Source: Peribolospora baueri (Eukaryota > Basidiomycota > Peribolosporomycetes > Peribolosporales > Peribolosporaceae). From it: a stretch of DNA of 64,000 nucleotides. Positions 29,206-35,567 of the stretch are shown piece after piece (the stretch's first letter is position 1; every line of letters starts with the position of its first letter). The notes under the pieces were generated by a model. That model worked only from the letters and a program-made list of their open reading frames with translations. It was not told the origin of the DNA and made no database searches. Position numbers and translations under genes: made by a program. The DNA is taken from positions 310,001 to 374,000 of the forward strand of contig JAMDHS010000007.1 in assembly GCA_029717555.1 (NCBI GenBank), written 5' to 3'.

Positions 29206-32200
29206 ATGGCTCAAGTTTCTGATAACCTCAAGATATACCCCGCGCAGAGCTACGATCTCTTCTTCTATGGTGAGTCCCTGTGCTCGGTGGATTGTACCCA
29301 GTCCGTGCTATGGCGGACGTCTGAGTTGGTTTGCTTTGATGTCACTGGCACCCATGGCTGTAGGCACGTTAATCCACCCCGCCATCTTGGCTCGAGTCAT
29401 TGGAAACGACGGTGCCCATCTGACCTTGCAGGAGGCTCTTCTACCGGTGAGTTTTGCCGAGTCGGGGGGAGGCTGTAATAAGTGGCCCGATCGGCGAGGC
29501 TCAACTTTCGTCGCTGCTCTGCAAGGGTCACACCCGTCACCATGTTTGCGGTGAGGACTATCCCGCGGTAGTTCCAATCTCCAGCTCCTCTCAGCTTCTC
29601 AAGCGGACTCCAGCGCCCACCGAAGCGACGGTCCGAGGTACGCTCGTCTCCGGTCTCACCGGTGCGGATGTCGCCTTCCTCGACACGTTCGAGGGCGACG
29701 ACTACACCCGCGTCGTAGCTGGCGTCATACCCACCTCTGGACCGAGCCAGACCCCTCGCAACAGCACGTCACTCCGTGCCGTTTCGGACCCGGATAGCGT
29801 AGCTTCCATCCTTCCGCCTCTTTCAGACGAGCAGATCGGACAATTCCTCTTGGAACCCACCCGGCCGGCGCATGTTTACCTCTGGGCGGCGTCTATCGAA
29901 CGACTTGCCCCCTCCATCTGGTCGTTTGAAGACTTCGTGCGGGACAAGGCACAGAACTGGGTGGGGCAAACTGGGGATGGCAGCGGAAAGGCCCACGAGT
30001 ACGCAGAAGTCGATAGGAGGCGAGCAATGGGCGGTAAAATCACGCCGAGGACCCCGAACGGCGGCAGTGGCTCTTCCACTCCGTCTGAGTTTGGGCACTC
30101 GATGAGGAAGTATTTTGCCTTCGATGACAAGCATACCAACTTAAATTGCGGTGGGTCGCTTCAGATCCCTTTTCCGCCGTCACAGTTAGCCGGAAGACGA
30201 GGCGAATCCGACCATTACTGATCGACCTCGGGTTGGCCTTTTAGGCAGCTTTGGCGTCTGTCCCCACCGCGTGCGCGAAGTCTATCGAGAATGGCAGGAT
30301 AAGATCGAAGCTCAGCCAGACGTGAGTTAAGGCGACCAACAAGTTTTGGCTTCAGCAGATCGATCTCGCATATGACGGCTGTCCAATCTCTTTGCAGCAC
30401 TTCATGATGATGGTAGTGGGCGGGGAGGTTAACAAGGTTCGGGCGCGTCTGGCACCCATGCTCGGCGCAGATGTGGACGAAGTCGTGCTTGTGAGTCTTG
30501 TACGAGCCCCATCTTCGGCCGCTACTGCACGCCCGTCGCGTGCGACTCACATTTTAGCTCTTTCCGTAAACAGGTAGCGAATTCCACGACCGGAGTGAAT
30601 GCTGTGGTGCGCGACCTCGACTGGAAGAAGGGAGACGTCATAGTGAGTAGCGGAGCCATGCTCCTCCTGTTTTCTTTGCCCTGCTTCCTCTGCGAAACAC
30701 TCAAGGCTGTCTGCAATGCTATTTTTCTCTCACGGGCAGCTCCTGTTTTCAACGATCTACAACGCCTGCGGGTCTACGTTGCGCTATGTTTCGGACTCGC
30801 ATCCCGCCCACCCGGAGTTGTTGATCCTGAACGTAGAATACCCGCTCAGTCATGACGCTTTAGTTTCCCAGGTCCGTAACGCGATCGAGAGTTTTGAGAC
30901 GGAGGAGGCGAAGAAAGGGAAGCGCATCAGGGCGGCTCTGGTCGACGCTATCAGCAGCCATCCCGGCGTCATCGTTCCGGTGGGTACTCAGCGGCTTCAA
31001 GTGGCACATCGTTGCCCTGAGAGTTTACATCGCCTCCGAACTCCTCATCCCGCTGCCTTCCTCTTCAGTGGGAACGTCTCGTCAAACTGTTCCGCGAGCA
31101 CGCCATCCTTTCTATTGTGGGTCCCAAGAATTTTCCGCCAGATCAGCCTGGATATTGGCGTCACCGGGCATCGGTAGTACTCCTCCAGAGAACTTCATTT
31201 TTTGACTCCTGTATTGAACTCACAGGTCGACGGGGCTCACGCCATCGGACAGATAGAGGTAGACTTGCACGCAGCTGACCCTGATTTCTTGTGAGTGCCA
31301 ATTTCTTCCTACCATGATTAGGTTTTTAGGTAATTCGGAGTTTCCTGACTCTGACTGGACCGGCGTTGTCCCTATTTCGTACTCACTTGCTCACTCATAA
31401 ACAGCGTGACGAACGTACACAAATGGGCCTTTGCCCATCGTGGCTGCGCCGTGCTTTATGTCCCCAAGAGGTGAGCTATGTTTGCACGTCATGAGGACGT
31501 CCGCATGTGGATTGTCGACTATGGCCGAATCAGCTCACGCGCCCTGTGCTCTTTCGTTCTCCGCAGAAATTTGCATCTTGCTCGCTCAAGCTTGCCGACC
31601 CCTAGAACATATCAGGGTCCGCCCGAAGACGGAAAGCCGAGCACATGGGTAAGTCGTCCAGCTGAAGGTTGCTTGCCACTTTCGGCGACTAGCAAAGCAG
31701 CTGACAAACGAAGCCTTTATCTTCCTTTACGAAAGGTTGACCAGTGGGCGTGGACTGGGACAATTACTCACTGCTCTTACCTCTCTATCGAAGCAGGTGG
31801 GTGCGTCGAGGACCCGCTTACCAGGGCGAAGATCCCGAAGTCAGAAATCTGAGCTCAGCTATATTTTGCTCTAATACATCGGGGGCCTATTCCTGCATTC
31901 TCGCAGCGCTTGACTTCCGCCAGTCCATCGGCGGCGAGGCGCAAATCCGTGAATACAACCACGATCTGGCCGTCAAAGGCGGTAAATTGGTGGCCCAGAA
32001 GCTCGGAACAGAAGTGATGGAGACCGAAAAGGGCGAGCTCACGGCAGCGATGGTTCGTCCGACTTATCAGGTACGAGAAATTGGGATCTGCGTGTTGTGA
32101 CAATGTCCCTCGTTTTGGCCGCCTTTACTTCCTCGCAGGTCAACGTCCGCCTTCCCATCGAACTCAAGCCCGGACAGGGCTTTGAATACGAAGATTGGTT

Positions 32201-32589
32201 CATCAGGACACTCGACCGCGAGTATAACACCATTGTGCCGCTTTTCAAGTAAGGTTCCCCGCCCTAATCCTGTCTTGTGCCTGCAGAAATGGGAAAAGGG
32301 CGCGCTCACCGAGATTCTTGCTCACATGTATCTACAGGCACGCCGGCAAGCTTTGGACGCGTCTGTCAGCTCAGATCTGGGTGAGTGAGGAGGCGCGTAG
32401 GTGTAGTGGTGTAGGACGTGTGTCCCCAGACTTCCAAAGTCCTTCGCTGACCGTTCGCGCCGACATTTAAACCTTTTCATACTCGTTTGCGATCTGCCCG
32501 CAAAGCTCGACCTGTCTGATTTCGAATTCATTGCTAGAGCCTTGGGGAACCTTTGCAAGCGTGTCAACGACGGCCAGGTGTCTCTCTGA
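29206..32589 (+). CDS. Fusion: AIG2-type gamma-glutamylcyclotransferase domain + class V PLP aminotransferase-like domain
   Basis: One gene of about 14 exons, near 650 residues. Exons 1-3 (29206-29269, 29364-29446, 29526-30150) encode a complete AIG2/GGCT-like fold: DLFFYGTLIHPAIL (the YGT substrate loop), ALLPGHTRHHVCGEDYPAVV, VRGTLVSGLTGADV, and FLDTFEGDDYTR with the expected catalytic Glu. It closes with AHVYLWAASIERL and FEDFVRDKAQNWVG. Exon 3 runs on without a stop through a Gly/Ser linker into FGHSMRKYFAFDDKHTNLNC. Exon 4 (30245-30322) continues as GSFGVCPHRVREVYREWQ, the N-terminus of the isopenicillin-N-epimerase-like PLP family. ISIVDGAHAIGQIEVDL-type and TNVHKWAFAHRG motifs carry the cofactor Asp and Lys. 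Fungal Egt2 ergothioneine lyases belong to this family, but the true substrate is unknown. Phases 1, 0 and 1 are consistent at the first three junctions. Confidence 0.85.
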
Positions 32590-32811: not shown

Positions 32812-35463
32812 TCAGGACTTGACCCGAACTTGGCTACCCCCCTCTCTCCACCGTCGGAGCTCCTTCCACACGCCAGGAAGTGCAGCCTTCGTCCGTTCCA
32901 TGATACGGTCCTCCCACTCCGGCTGGTCCTTGTACTTCCTTCCGAAGCGTGCGAACCGGAGGAGCATCCCGACGGTTCTTTGGTCGGGCACGGAACGCGT
33001 CGCCTGCCTGGCCTCTGCATCTGCGTCGTCCAGAAGCGGCGCCGACTCAATTTTCCTTTCGCCGCCCTTGGGCTCAACCACGAGACCGGCGTTTCGCAGT
33101 TCGCCGCTGCAAACGACGGCGATGGCCTCATCCAGCCGTCCACACCGTGCCAAACACTCTATCCACGCCTCCCAATTCGGCCCGTTCATCTCAAACCCTT
33201 CCCGGCGTAGCGTCTCCCACGCCTTCCGCGCGTATGGGAGCTCGTCGGCGTAGCCGCAACCATCCAAGAGGATGCTGACCGTCGCATTGTCGATGCGTCG
33301 ACGGTTGACACGGAGGTTCTCCCAGATATGCGTCACGAGCCCAAAGTGACCTGTGCGATTGTAGGCGTTCATGAGCGCGTTGACCAACGGCAAGTCGGGC
33401 TCGAGCTCGAGATCCATCTTGATCAAATCGTGCGTCCGCAGCACAGACTCTTCGTCGCCAACCTTGGCATAGTAATTGAGGACGAGGGTGTAGGTATTAG
33501 AAAGAGGGCGGCAGCCAGCTTGGGTCATGTCCCTGAGGATCTCAAACACTGCATCCGATGGTGCGATTTCGTACGAAGCTATACTTGAGGGGCTGAAGAA
33601 GGAGTCTGGCGAGTCTGGTGCAGATTCGAACTGTTTGTCCCTGCCGTTCCGAGGAAAACGGAGACGCGTGAAGGCGGACAGGATAGTCATGAAGCCAGCA
33701 CCGTCGAGGGCAAACTTGTCAAGAGCAAACAGGTACGCGTACGCCTGGAATGCTTCGACGTGATCTCGACTGGCACGCATGAGCAGCAGAGTGATCTCGA
33801 TGACCTGGCGAGTGTTGAGCTTGACCCCTTTGTTGCGCATGTCGTCCAGGATCTCAATTGCTCGGTTCACATTGCGGGCTCGCGCGGCGCCGTGAAGAAG
33901 CGTAACGTAGACGTGAGGTTGCAGTACCAGCGGGCGACCATCGGAACCGTTTGGTAGGTCTTCAACGACGGAAAGCGCTCCATCGAGGTCCGGAGGGGTC
34001 TTTAAGCACAGCGCCCTGATGATGGGATGAACGAGGGCCGAGTCGGGCGAGACACCGGCGGACTGGGCGTCTTTGTACAACGTTAAGGCGTCGTTCAAAG
34101 CTCTCGCCGAGAGCTCTGGTGAGACCACAGGTGGCTCATCTGAGACAGAGTCGCCCATCGGACCGCTTGGCGGCGATGACGATCCGGCTCGGAGAATTTG
34201 AGAGATGGCTCTGCTATAGGCCTCTCGCCCAGGCCGTATTCTAGTCAAGCTTTCCACTCTGTCCAGCGCTGCCCTTGCGCTCCCAACGTCCTTTACATAC
34301 GCCAGACAGTATAGGGACACGAGGATATTGACGGTGAACAGGTCGGGTTCGAAATCGGCCGATTCTAAGGCATTTTGGAGCTCCTTCTCAGCTGCTTCCA
34401 CTCCTAGCCTATGGCCTTTGTAAGCGACGAGAGCATTCCAAAGCGCCGTATCGAGACGCTCGCCCTTCTGCAATAGGCTTTGCAATTGTTGTTCAACCTC
34501 GGCTGCTTTCTCCCAGCATTCCATCTTCGAATAGCCGTTGAGAAGCGTCGTTTGCGTCCAAGGAGTTGGTGCAACCTGGGCGGCGTTCATGGCGCTGATT
34601 GTCCGTTCGACGGATGCCAAGTCGCTGGCGGCAAATGACCCCTTCAGGATACTGGTGAGGGATATCGCGTTCGGACGTAAACCTTCCTGCTCTAGGAAAG
34701 CCAGCGTCCGCTCCAATCCCGCCACGTCCGCTTTTCGCTGGAAGCCGGATAGGACCGCGTTGCATATGAAAATATTGGGCCGAAAGCCGTAGGCCTGCTT
34801 GAGCTTGGCAATGCACACCAGCGCCTCGTCTGGCCTCTCCGCTCTCACATAGCCAAGGATGAGAGAGAAGAAGTCCGAAGCCTCGTAGGACCAGCGGAAG
34901 AGACGTCCTACGTCGTAGAACATGCGCTGCAGCAGAACGAGATGGCCGTCGTCGCAGCGGGAGGAGAGTAGCTTCATCGCCGCGCGCAGATCTTTTGCAC
35001 GAATGGGGAGCGCAGCATCTGTGGATGTCGACGCACGATCACGGTCGCGGAGGGAACGGACGAGTTCTCGGTACGGTCGGTGCAGGCGTTCTGGTCTGCC
35101 GGCTTCGATGGCCTTGAGGAACGCCTCAGCCGGATCATATGAGACATTTGCTACTAGTGCACCTGGAATCCATTTTCGTCGCGATGGGCCTGTGAAACGA
35201 GAGAAGAAAGCAGACGACAGAGACGAGGAAGTGAACGTTCGTGGCTGCTCCTGCGGCGCGGGAGTTGACGGTGGGTGAAGAGTACGGCGCCGTGGAGAAG
35301 CGAGAATAGGTGGCGATGGAAGCAGCTGTACCGCCCCAGGCGGCGTTTTGACGGCGAGCCGACACAACGCTTGCTTCCGAAGCGACATGAAAGGCGAAGT
35401 CGAAGCTGGTGGACGTCGACGGGCTGGGCAGTCCAGAGGCGGACACCGATACGAACGGCGCAT
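32812..35463 (-). CDS. Mitochondrial pentatricopeptide-repeat (PPR) protein
   Basis: Single-exon gene of up to 883 residues. The start is basic and hydroxylated, as for mitochondrial import. If ATG 35388 is used, the protein begins MSLRKQALCRLAV, a better presequence than the start at 35463. Repeats of about 35 residues with the PPR helix pattern run through most of the protein, for example FICNAVLSGFQRKADVAG, TQTTLLNGYSKMECWEKA, YVTLLHGAARARNVNRA, YTLVLNYYAKVGDEES and LVNALMNAYNRTGHFG. PPR proteins bind organellar RNA for processing, stability or translation; the target here cannot be told. It is intronless while neighbours have many introns. It shares a very short divergent promoter with FAM32A. 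Confidence 0.85.
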   Translation of the reverse strand: MRRSYRCPPLDCPARRRPPASTSPFMSLRKQALCRLAVKTPPGAVQLLPSPPILASPRRRTLHPPSTPAPQEQPRTFTSSSLSSAFFSRFTGPSRRKWIPGALVANVSYDPAEAFLKAIEAGRPERLHRPYRELVRSLRDRDRASTSTDAALPIRAKDLRAAMKLLSSRCDDGHLVLLQRMFYDVGRLFRWSYEASDFFSLILGYVRAERPDEALVCIAKLKQAYGFRPNIFICNAVLSGFQRKADVAGLERTLAFLEQEGLRPNAISLTSILKGSFAASDLASVERTISAMNAAQVAPTPWTQTTLLNGYSKMECWEKAAEVEQQLQSLLQKGERLDTALWNALVAYKGHRLGVEAAEKELQNALESADFEPDLFTVNILVSLYCLAYVKDVGSARAALDRVESLTRIRPGREAYSRAISQILRAGSSSPPSGPMGDSVSDEPPVVSPELSARALNDALTLYKDAQSAGVSPDSALVHPIIRALCLKTPPDLDGALSVVEDLPNGSDGRPLVLQPHVYVTLLHGAARARNVNRAIEILDDMRNKGVKLNTRQVIEITLLLMRASRDHVEAFQAYAYLFALDKFALDGAGFMTILSAFTRLRFPRNGRDKQFESAPDSPDSFFSPSSIASYEIAPSDAVFEILRDMTQAGCRPLSNTYTLVLNYYAKVGDEESVLRTHDLIKMDLELEPDLPLVNALMNAYNRTGHFGLVTHIWENLRVNRRRIDNATVSILLDGCGYADELPYARKAWETLRREGFEMNGPNWEAWIECLARCGRLDEAIAVVCSGELRNAGLVVEPKGGERKIESAPLLDDADAEARQATRSVPDQRTVGMLLRFARFGRKYKDQPEWEDRIMERTKAALPGVWKELRRWREGGSQVRVKS

Positions 35464-35567
35464 TGGCGCGAAGTATTTCTTCGAAGGTCACGTGCCAGCG
35501 ATCGCGACCGTTTTCCCCTCCCTAGCCGCGGTGGGGCACAGTTTGCCGCTCACCACCATCGTCGACC
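35464..35567. promoter_or_regulatory. 104-bp bidirectional promoter (PPR / FAM32A) with a GTCACGTG motif
   Basis: Only 104 bases separate the outermost divergent ATGs (about 180 if the PPR gene starts at 35388). GTCACGTG at 35487-35494 matches RTCACRTG and is the only motif I recognise here. Confidence 0.4.

Follow-up and report, generated by a model that had tools for sequence, protein, structure and literature searches.

An AIG2–Egt2 domain fusion conserved in basidiomycetes and its possible role in ergothioneine synthesis

Why should a fungus join a cyclotransferase-type domain to an enzyme that resembles the last step of ergothioneine synthesis? The question is raised by a gene in a 64,000-nucleotide stretch of Peribolospora baueri DNA (Basidiomycota; assembly GCA_029717555.1, contig JAMDHS010000007.1, positions 310,001 to 374,000 of the forward strand), which we call the window and number from its first letter. 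An original prediction, made from the letters of this stretch, read the gene as an AIG2-type γ-glutamylcyclotransferase fused to a class V pyridoxal phosphate (PLP) enzyme, placed the PLP half near fungal Egt2 and suggested that a γ-glutamyl cut precedes the PLP reaction. Here, we find on sequence evidence that the AIG2–PLP fusion is real, being neither an artefact nor unique to this genome. The N-terminal domain is, by homology, an AIG2/GGACT-type cyclotransferase with conserved residues, and the C-terminal domain is, as predicted in the same way, an Egt2-type ergothioneine C–S lyase that carries the key residues of that family. The domain fusion is conserved and apparently undescribed, each enzyme type being already known; as the prediction supposed, no account of the pairing was found in the PubMed Central (PMC) literature, a coverage that excludes subscription journals and preprints.

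Gene structure and the two domains

The spliced model joins 16 exons into a single open frame of 657 amino acids, and its introns, all GT..AG, measure 68–125 bases. Exon 3 holds the remainder of the AIG2 domain with its Glu motif and, after a Ser/Gly/Pro-rich linker, the first part of the PLP domain at NLNCG (Asn254, positions 30138–30140). The coding frame runs through all 625 bases of this exon without a stop, the other two frames containing five and seven, and the splice phases are compatible on either side. Both domains score above their Pfam cut-offs: GGACT (PF06094) at residues 18–114 with 30.5 bits against 22.8, and Aminotran_5 (PF00266) at residues 283–564 with 63.2 bits against 21.5. 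The predicted one-gene fusion across an uninterrupted exon thus stands, and a stop inside the junction was looked for and is absent.

The PLP half proved to be kin to Egt2, as had been proposed. Neurospora crassa Egt2 matches residues 234–654 in one stretch (E 4.6e-84, 286.2 bits) and is the closest solved relative over the whole PLP domain; relative P0002 gives the same result. The Mannich cyclase LolT (8dl5) scores lower, at 240.6 bits. Fold scores from predicted models tie Egt2 with LolT for this half, while the sequence scores favour Egt2. Conservation was read from an alignment (A1) of 20 rows, comprising the window protein and 19 of the 40 fused relatives described below. Lys461 of the NVHKW motif, which we take to be the PLP Schiff-base lysine, is conserved in 19 of the 20 rows, as is Tyr344, and the window protein carries both. 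The aligned Tyr is the residue mutated to Phe in the Egt2 Y134F entry (title of 5v12).

The AIG2 half is no less conserved. Its motif LD.FE...Y.R (with L or I in the first place and F or Y in the fourth), the Glu of which (LDTFEGDDYTR in the window protein) we presume to be the catalytic Glu of the AIG2 family, occurs in 40 of 41 fused proteins, the window protein included, so that the motifs first noticed here are intact well beyond this gene; the sole exception, P0023, has a gene model from which the stretch is missing. The 13 AIG2 positions that were checked are identical in all 20 rows, and Tyr21, Gly22, Tyr61, Pro62, Asp102, Glu105, Tyr109 and Arg111 are invariant. Mean pair identity is 48.2% in the AIG2 core and 44.9% in the PLP domain (171 pairs, P0035 excluded; AIG2 higher in 108). 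PF06094 matches every A1 member at E ≤ 0.01, the members having been chosen as fused. Predicted models also place this half in the GGCT fold, a comparison made through another relative, as that of the fused model covers the PLP half only. Invariant AIG2 positions, and an AIG2 core conserved to the same degree as the lyase, point to functional selection on the two halves alike.

Table 1. Features of the fused gene, in window coordinates
Feature	Position	Strand	Basis
Fused gene, AIG2 + Egt2-type PLP enzyme, ATG to TGA, 16 exons	29206..32589	+	splicing, Pfam
Exon 1, AIG2 domain start as far as FFYG	29206..29269	+	splice model
Exon 2, AIG2 domain (TLIHPAILARVIG..)	29364..29446	+	splice model
Exon 3, remaining AIG2, linker and PLP domain start, one open frame	29526..30150	+	splice model, frame check
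Glu105 codon, candidate catalytic Glu of AIG2 domain (LDTFEGDDYTR)	29691..29693	+	aligned with 2jqv motif
Met217, possible internal start of PLP-only product	30027..30029	+	Met in 13/20 aligned fused proteins
Egt2-type PLP domain, residues 234 to end, introns included	30078..32586	+	match to Egt2
Tyr344, aligned with Tyr of TIYGACG (Phe in Egt2 Y134F entry)	30758..30760	+	alignment
Lys461 of NVHKW, expected PLP Schiff-base lysine	31421..31423	+	alignment
Exon 13; alternative donors after 32070 (GTACGA) and after 32052 (GTTCGT), homology favouring the latter	31907..32070	+	

At exon 13, the GTTCGT donor leaves the frame unchanged, yields 651 amino acids and agrees with the aligned relatives, from which the six residues added by the GTACGA donor are absent. 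Upstream of the fused gene lies an ABC1-type kinase gene (only its last open stretch was checked). Immediately downstream, and convergent with the fused gene, lies a gene for a large PPR protein in one long open frame (32842–35484, minus strand). No gene cluster is evident around the fused gene, whose neighbours are the ABC1-type kinase and PPR genes.

Distribution and history of the fusion

The original prediction called for relatives with the same fusion, and these exist. In a first protein search, both Pfam domains were present in 38 proteins among the best 120 of 145 matches; a second search, with alignment A1, added P0241, and the AIG2 motif added P0040, which lacks a Pfam call, giving at least 40 fused relatives. 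Each protein search scored only 7996 candidates, so that coverage of Agaricomycetes is sparse and little can be read from a group being missing. Among the relatives are 15 named genera, including Leucosporidium, Rhodotorula (six named species), Sporobolomyces, Microbotryum, Atractiella, Rhizoctonia (four rows being Rhizoctonia solani), Tulasnella, Cryptococcus, Kwoniella and Jaminaea. Taxonomy look-up places Atractiella and Leucosporidium in Pucciniomycotina, Tulasnella and Kwoniella in Agaricomycotina and Jaminaea in Ustilaginomycotina, where it is the only named fused row assigned among the matches listed. Unfused Egt2-like proteins occur in Ustilago, Testicularia, Tilletia, Mycena, Mucor and Ascomycota, among others. 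The premise that the two families normally occur separately therefore holds in part: unfused forms exist, but fused ones are spread over three subphyla of the basidiomycetes.

Several predicted proteins depart from the two-domain order. Atractiella P0001 reads AIG2–PLP–PLP and Tulasnella P0005 reads AIG2–PLP–AIG2–PLP, each being a tandem duplication or a gene-model run-on, and R. solani P0024 ends in an extra PITH domain that may likewise come from a run-on model. Rhodosporidiobolus poonsookiae has an unfused Egt2-like protein (P0047) besides a fused one (P0010); the two paired (support 84/82) in a rough first tree that included badly cut rows (P0241 and others), a pairing that would mean loss of the AIG2 half after duplication.

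To what history does this distribution belong? A PLP tree was built from 38 domains (the window, 18 of the 40 fused relatives and 19 unfused rows), and the groups tested on it were defined by domains and taxonomy, but after a first tree had been seen. Placing every fused PLP domain in one clade is rejected by the approximately unbiased (AU) test (p-AU 5.8e-5). An all-basidiomycete clade is absent from the best tree and is not rejected (p-AU 0.29 with P0028, 0.36 without it). The basidiomycete grouping is broken in the best tree by ascomycete rows, which branch next to the window and the smut fungi (92/80), and the position of the window near the smuts is weakly supported. Unfused Mycena groups with fused Rhizoctonia within Agaricomycotina (99/91).

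The AIG2 tree holds 20 domains, from the window, 18 of the 40 fused relatives and the fragment P0105. Four lineage labels need four changes on it, with a minimum of three and a shuffled mean of 9.0; this count is biased towards agreement, since P0035 and P0105 were labelled by their likeness to smut proteins. Tremellomycetes form a clade (99/98), as do Cantharellales weakly (80/67), and no other labelled lineage does; the long-branch rows fall beside Cantharellales (Atractiella) or apart (Jaminaea). The simplest reading of these sequence comparisons is one old fusion whose domains were inherited together, some smuts and Mycena having later lost the AIG2 half. The fusion may also have been gained more than once; change counts are unable to separate gain from loss.

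A possible role in ergothioneine synthesis

What, then, would the added domain do? Passages of PMC4493562 and PMC11993508 relate that bacteria join hercynine with γ-glutamylcysteine and need EgtC, whereas Neurospora Egt1 takes cysteine directly. The glutamyl-removing enzyme is apparently missing in fungi (according to a passage of PMC5066259), and in Ganoderma the γ-glutamyl intermediate is described as a dead end (in part of PMC10672712). We tentatively propose that the fused protein is a two-domain ergothioneine enzyme, the AIG2 half of which would deglutamylate a cysteine conjugate, most likely γ-glutamyl-hercynylcysteine S-oxide. Just ahead of C–S cleavage, the AIG2 domain would remove the γ-glutamyl group as 5-oxoproline; the freed amino group could then form an aldimine with PLP, and the Egt2 domain would convert hercynylcysteine S-oxide into ergothioneine. 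The glutamylated intermediate would arise if Egt1 took γ-glutamylcysteine, by a side route or one dependent on conditions, and the fused protein would rescue a compound that Egt2 alone could not use, doing the job of EgtC with an unrelated fold.

The same genome was searched for the other pathway genes. An Egt1 gene on contig C115, whose database relatives are basidiomycete Egt1-type proteins, can be spliced to an open reading of 1151 amino acids with the iron-site motif HEIMHAE. In its first exon (L014:1237-2809), the methyltransferase part contains low-complexity inserts, some of them glycine-rich; many mushroom Egt1 rows have about 870 residues, and unspliced introns may remain in the longer reading. 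An exon-wise search with two different queries found no second Egt2-like locus, leaving at least one locus in the genome. The genome also has a 5-oxoprolinase-type gene. A search for ChaC, insensitive to introns, gave no match, nor did a PF06094 search of the genome; as introns split the domain, the latter missed even the fused gene, so that these negatives say little on further AIG2 or ChaC genes. An EgtC-like class II glutamine amidotransferase (GATase) exon lies elsewhere (G000:C172:61564-61839, L023), scoring 27 bits against a cut-off of 218.65 for TIGR03442 and 23.4 against 23, just above the cut-off, for GATase_4; we take it to be probably Dug3-like.

A switch of sulfur donor was sought in Egt1. 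Substrate residues of mycobacterial EgtB, named in part of PMC4768315, were mapped to Egt1 by alignment with an assumed one-residue offset (Arg87 and Arg90 remained unmapped), and nine columns were compared between seven Egt1 rows from genera with the fusion (the window genome, four Rhizoctonia, one Tulasnella and one Cryptococcus, the last two from other isolates than the fused proteins) and 114 others, mostly from mushrooms or without an organism name, a comparison of genera known to carry the fusion with all remaining rows rather than with proven fusion-free genera. The equivalents of Asp416 and Arg420 are Tyr and Tyr in all seven, and Tyr in 111 and all 114 of the others, respectively. The Trp415 equivalent is Phe in the four Rhizoctonia rows and likewise in 13 of the 114; the Asp column of GIDP shows Asn in one Rhizoctonia row (P0121), where a motif search still finds GIDP, probably through an alignment slip; the remaining five columns do not set the fusion genera apart. 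A shift of Egt1 to γ-glutamylcysteine in these genera thus finds no support at the two donor-linked positions.

This result heads the points that weigh against the proposed role, since with Tyr at both positions in both groups nothing marks a sulfur-donor switch. The GGACT branch, moreover, is known for γ-glutamylamines such as γ-glutamyl-ε-lysine and not for γ-glutamylcysteine conjugates; the EgtC-like exon on C172 could itself perform γ-glutamyl removal; Grifola, an ergothioneine-making mushroom, has an unfused Egt2 (477 amino acids); and cysteine is the substrate reported for Neurospora Egt1 in passages of PMC4493562 and PMC11993508. The predicted order of a γ-glutamyl cut followed by the PLP step stays plausible, though its strong form has against it that Egt1 is unchanged at the two mapped donor positions. 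As the donor-switch test was negative, we lean towards salvage or a side route; the rivals are cysteine supply and the processing of a wider range of conjugates.

In the first of these, which we think unlikely, the AIG2 domain frees cysteine and 5-oxoproline from γ-glutamylcysteine or another γ-glutamyl compound upstream, for use by Egt1, and the fusion only links expression. The likeness of Egt1 to other fungal rows at the two donor-linked positions would suit such a supply, as would the 5-oxoprolinase-type gene and the lack of a ChaC match, subject to the insensitivity of that search to introns; the fusion partner, though, is Egt2, the last enzyme, rather than Egt1, and Pfam assigns the AIG2 half to the GGACT family, whose known human member acts on γ-glutamylamines. 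Nor do we give much credence to a role in processing wider glutathione S-conjugates, for detoxification or another thiol product, in which AIG2 takes the γ-glutamyl group, a peptidase the glycine and the PLP half cuts C–S, like GliK and GliI: by sequence the PLP half is closer to Egt2 than to LolT, and the exon-wise search gave no second Egt2 that could serve the Egt1 of this genome. We also think it improbable that the AIG2 half no longer has its ancestral activity, or that it acts in assembly, in regulation or in a different reaction, as domains of this fold can when fused: eight residues, Glu105 among them, are invariant in 20 of 20 rows, which a mere scaffold would hardly need. Least of all do we expect that two adjoining genes were merged in error or that the locus yields two distinct transcripts: Met217 (Table 1) could start a PLP-only product, but the stop-free 625-base junction exon, the phases fitting on both sides and the same order in at least 40 database proteins, 15 named genera among them, lead us to reject a merged-gene artefact, and with such recurrence a fault of assembly or annotation peculiar to this genome is very improbable.

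The fusion bears on how the fungal pathway is drawn. In passages of PMC5066259 and PMC10672712 the short fungal route is explained by the use of cysteine and the want of a known glutamyl-removing enzyme. A conserved cyclotransferase domain, joined to the route's final enzyme in three subphyla of basidiomycetes, puts that explanation directly in question, and on the lyase it would fill exactly the gap stated for fungi. It is possible, if rather doubtful, that basidiomycetes have a γ-glutamyl branch of ergothioneine synthesis closed by one bifunctional protein, with an AIG2 fold replacing bacterial EgtC; such a branch would date back roughly to the origin of the phylum and be lacking in current fungal pathway charts. 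The fusion is also relevant to ergothioneine production in yeasts such as Rhodotorula with EGT2 overexpression. In Rhodotorula toruloides, overexpression of EGT1 and EGT2 (RtEGT2, RHTO_04309) gave more ergothioneine, according to part of PMC11089744, in the main text of which the words AIG2, fusion and domain do not occur. As six named Rhodotorula species carry the fusion, RtEGT2 is likely the fused form.

Comparison with known systems

Each half of the protein has a counterpart that stands alone. Egt2 of N. crassa (5uts, 5v12, 5v1x), the hercynylcysteine sulfoxide lyase, shares the whole PLP domain and the key Tyr and Lys, but its chain of 501 amino acids matches the PLP half only and no part of it resembles the AIG2 half; the match to LolT likewise covers the PLP half, with part of the linker. 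Conversely, human GGACT and Arabidopsis AIG2-like proteins (3juc, 2jqv) are chains of 149–165 residues without a PLP domain.

For the pairing of activities, two systems come close. In gliotoxin synthesis, GliK is described as removing a γ-glutamyl group, and GliI follows with PLP-dependent C–S cleavage; these are separate proteins with a different product, and we liken them by description. EgtC of mycobacteria, which removes glutamate before EgtE acts, offers the nearer parallel, as the reaction proposed here takes place on the same kind of intermediate. EgtC is a class II GATase, and no such domain is among the four Pfam families matching the window protein at E ≤ 1, so that the likeness is one of working only. 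In contrast to that amidotransferase-type enzyme, the fungal candidate has a predicted AIG2/GGCT fold, is fused to the lyase itself and would be expected to release 5-oxoproline.
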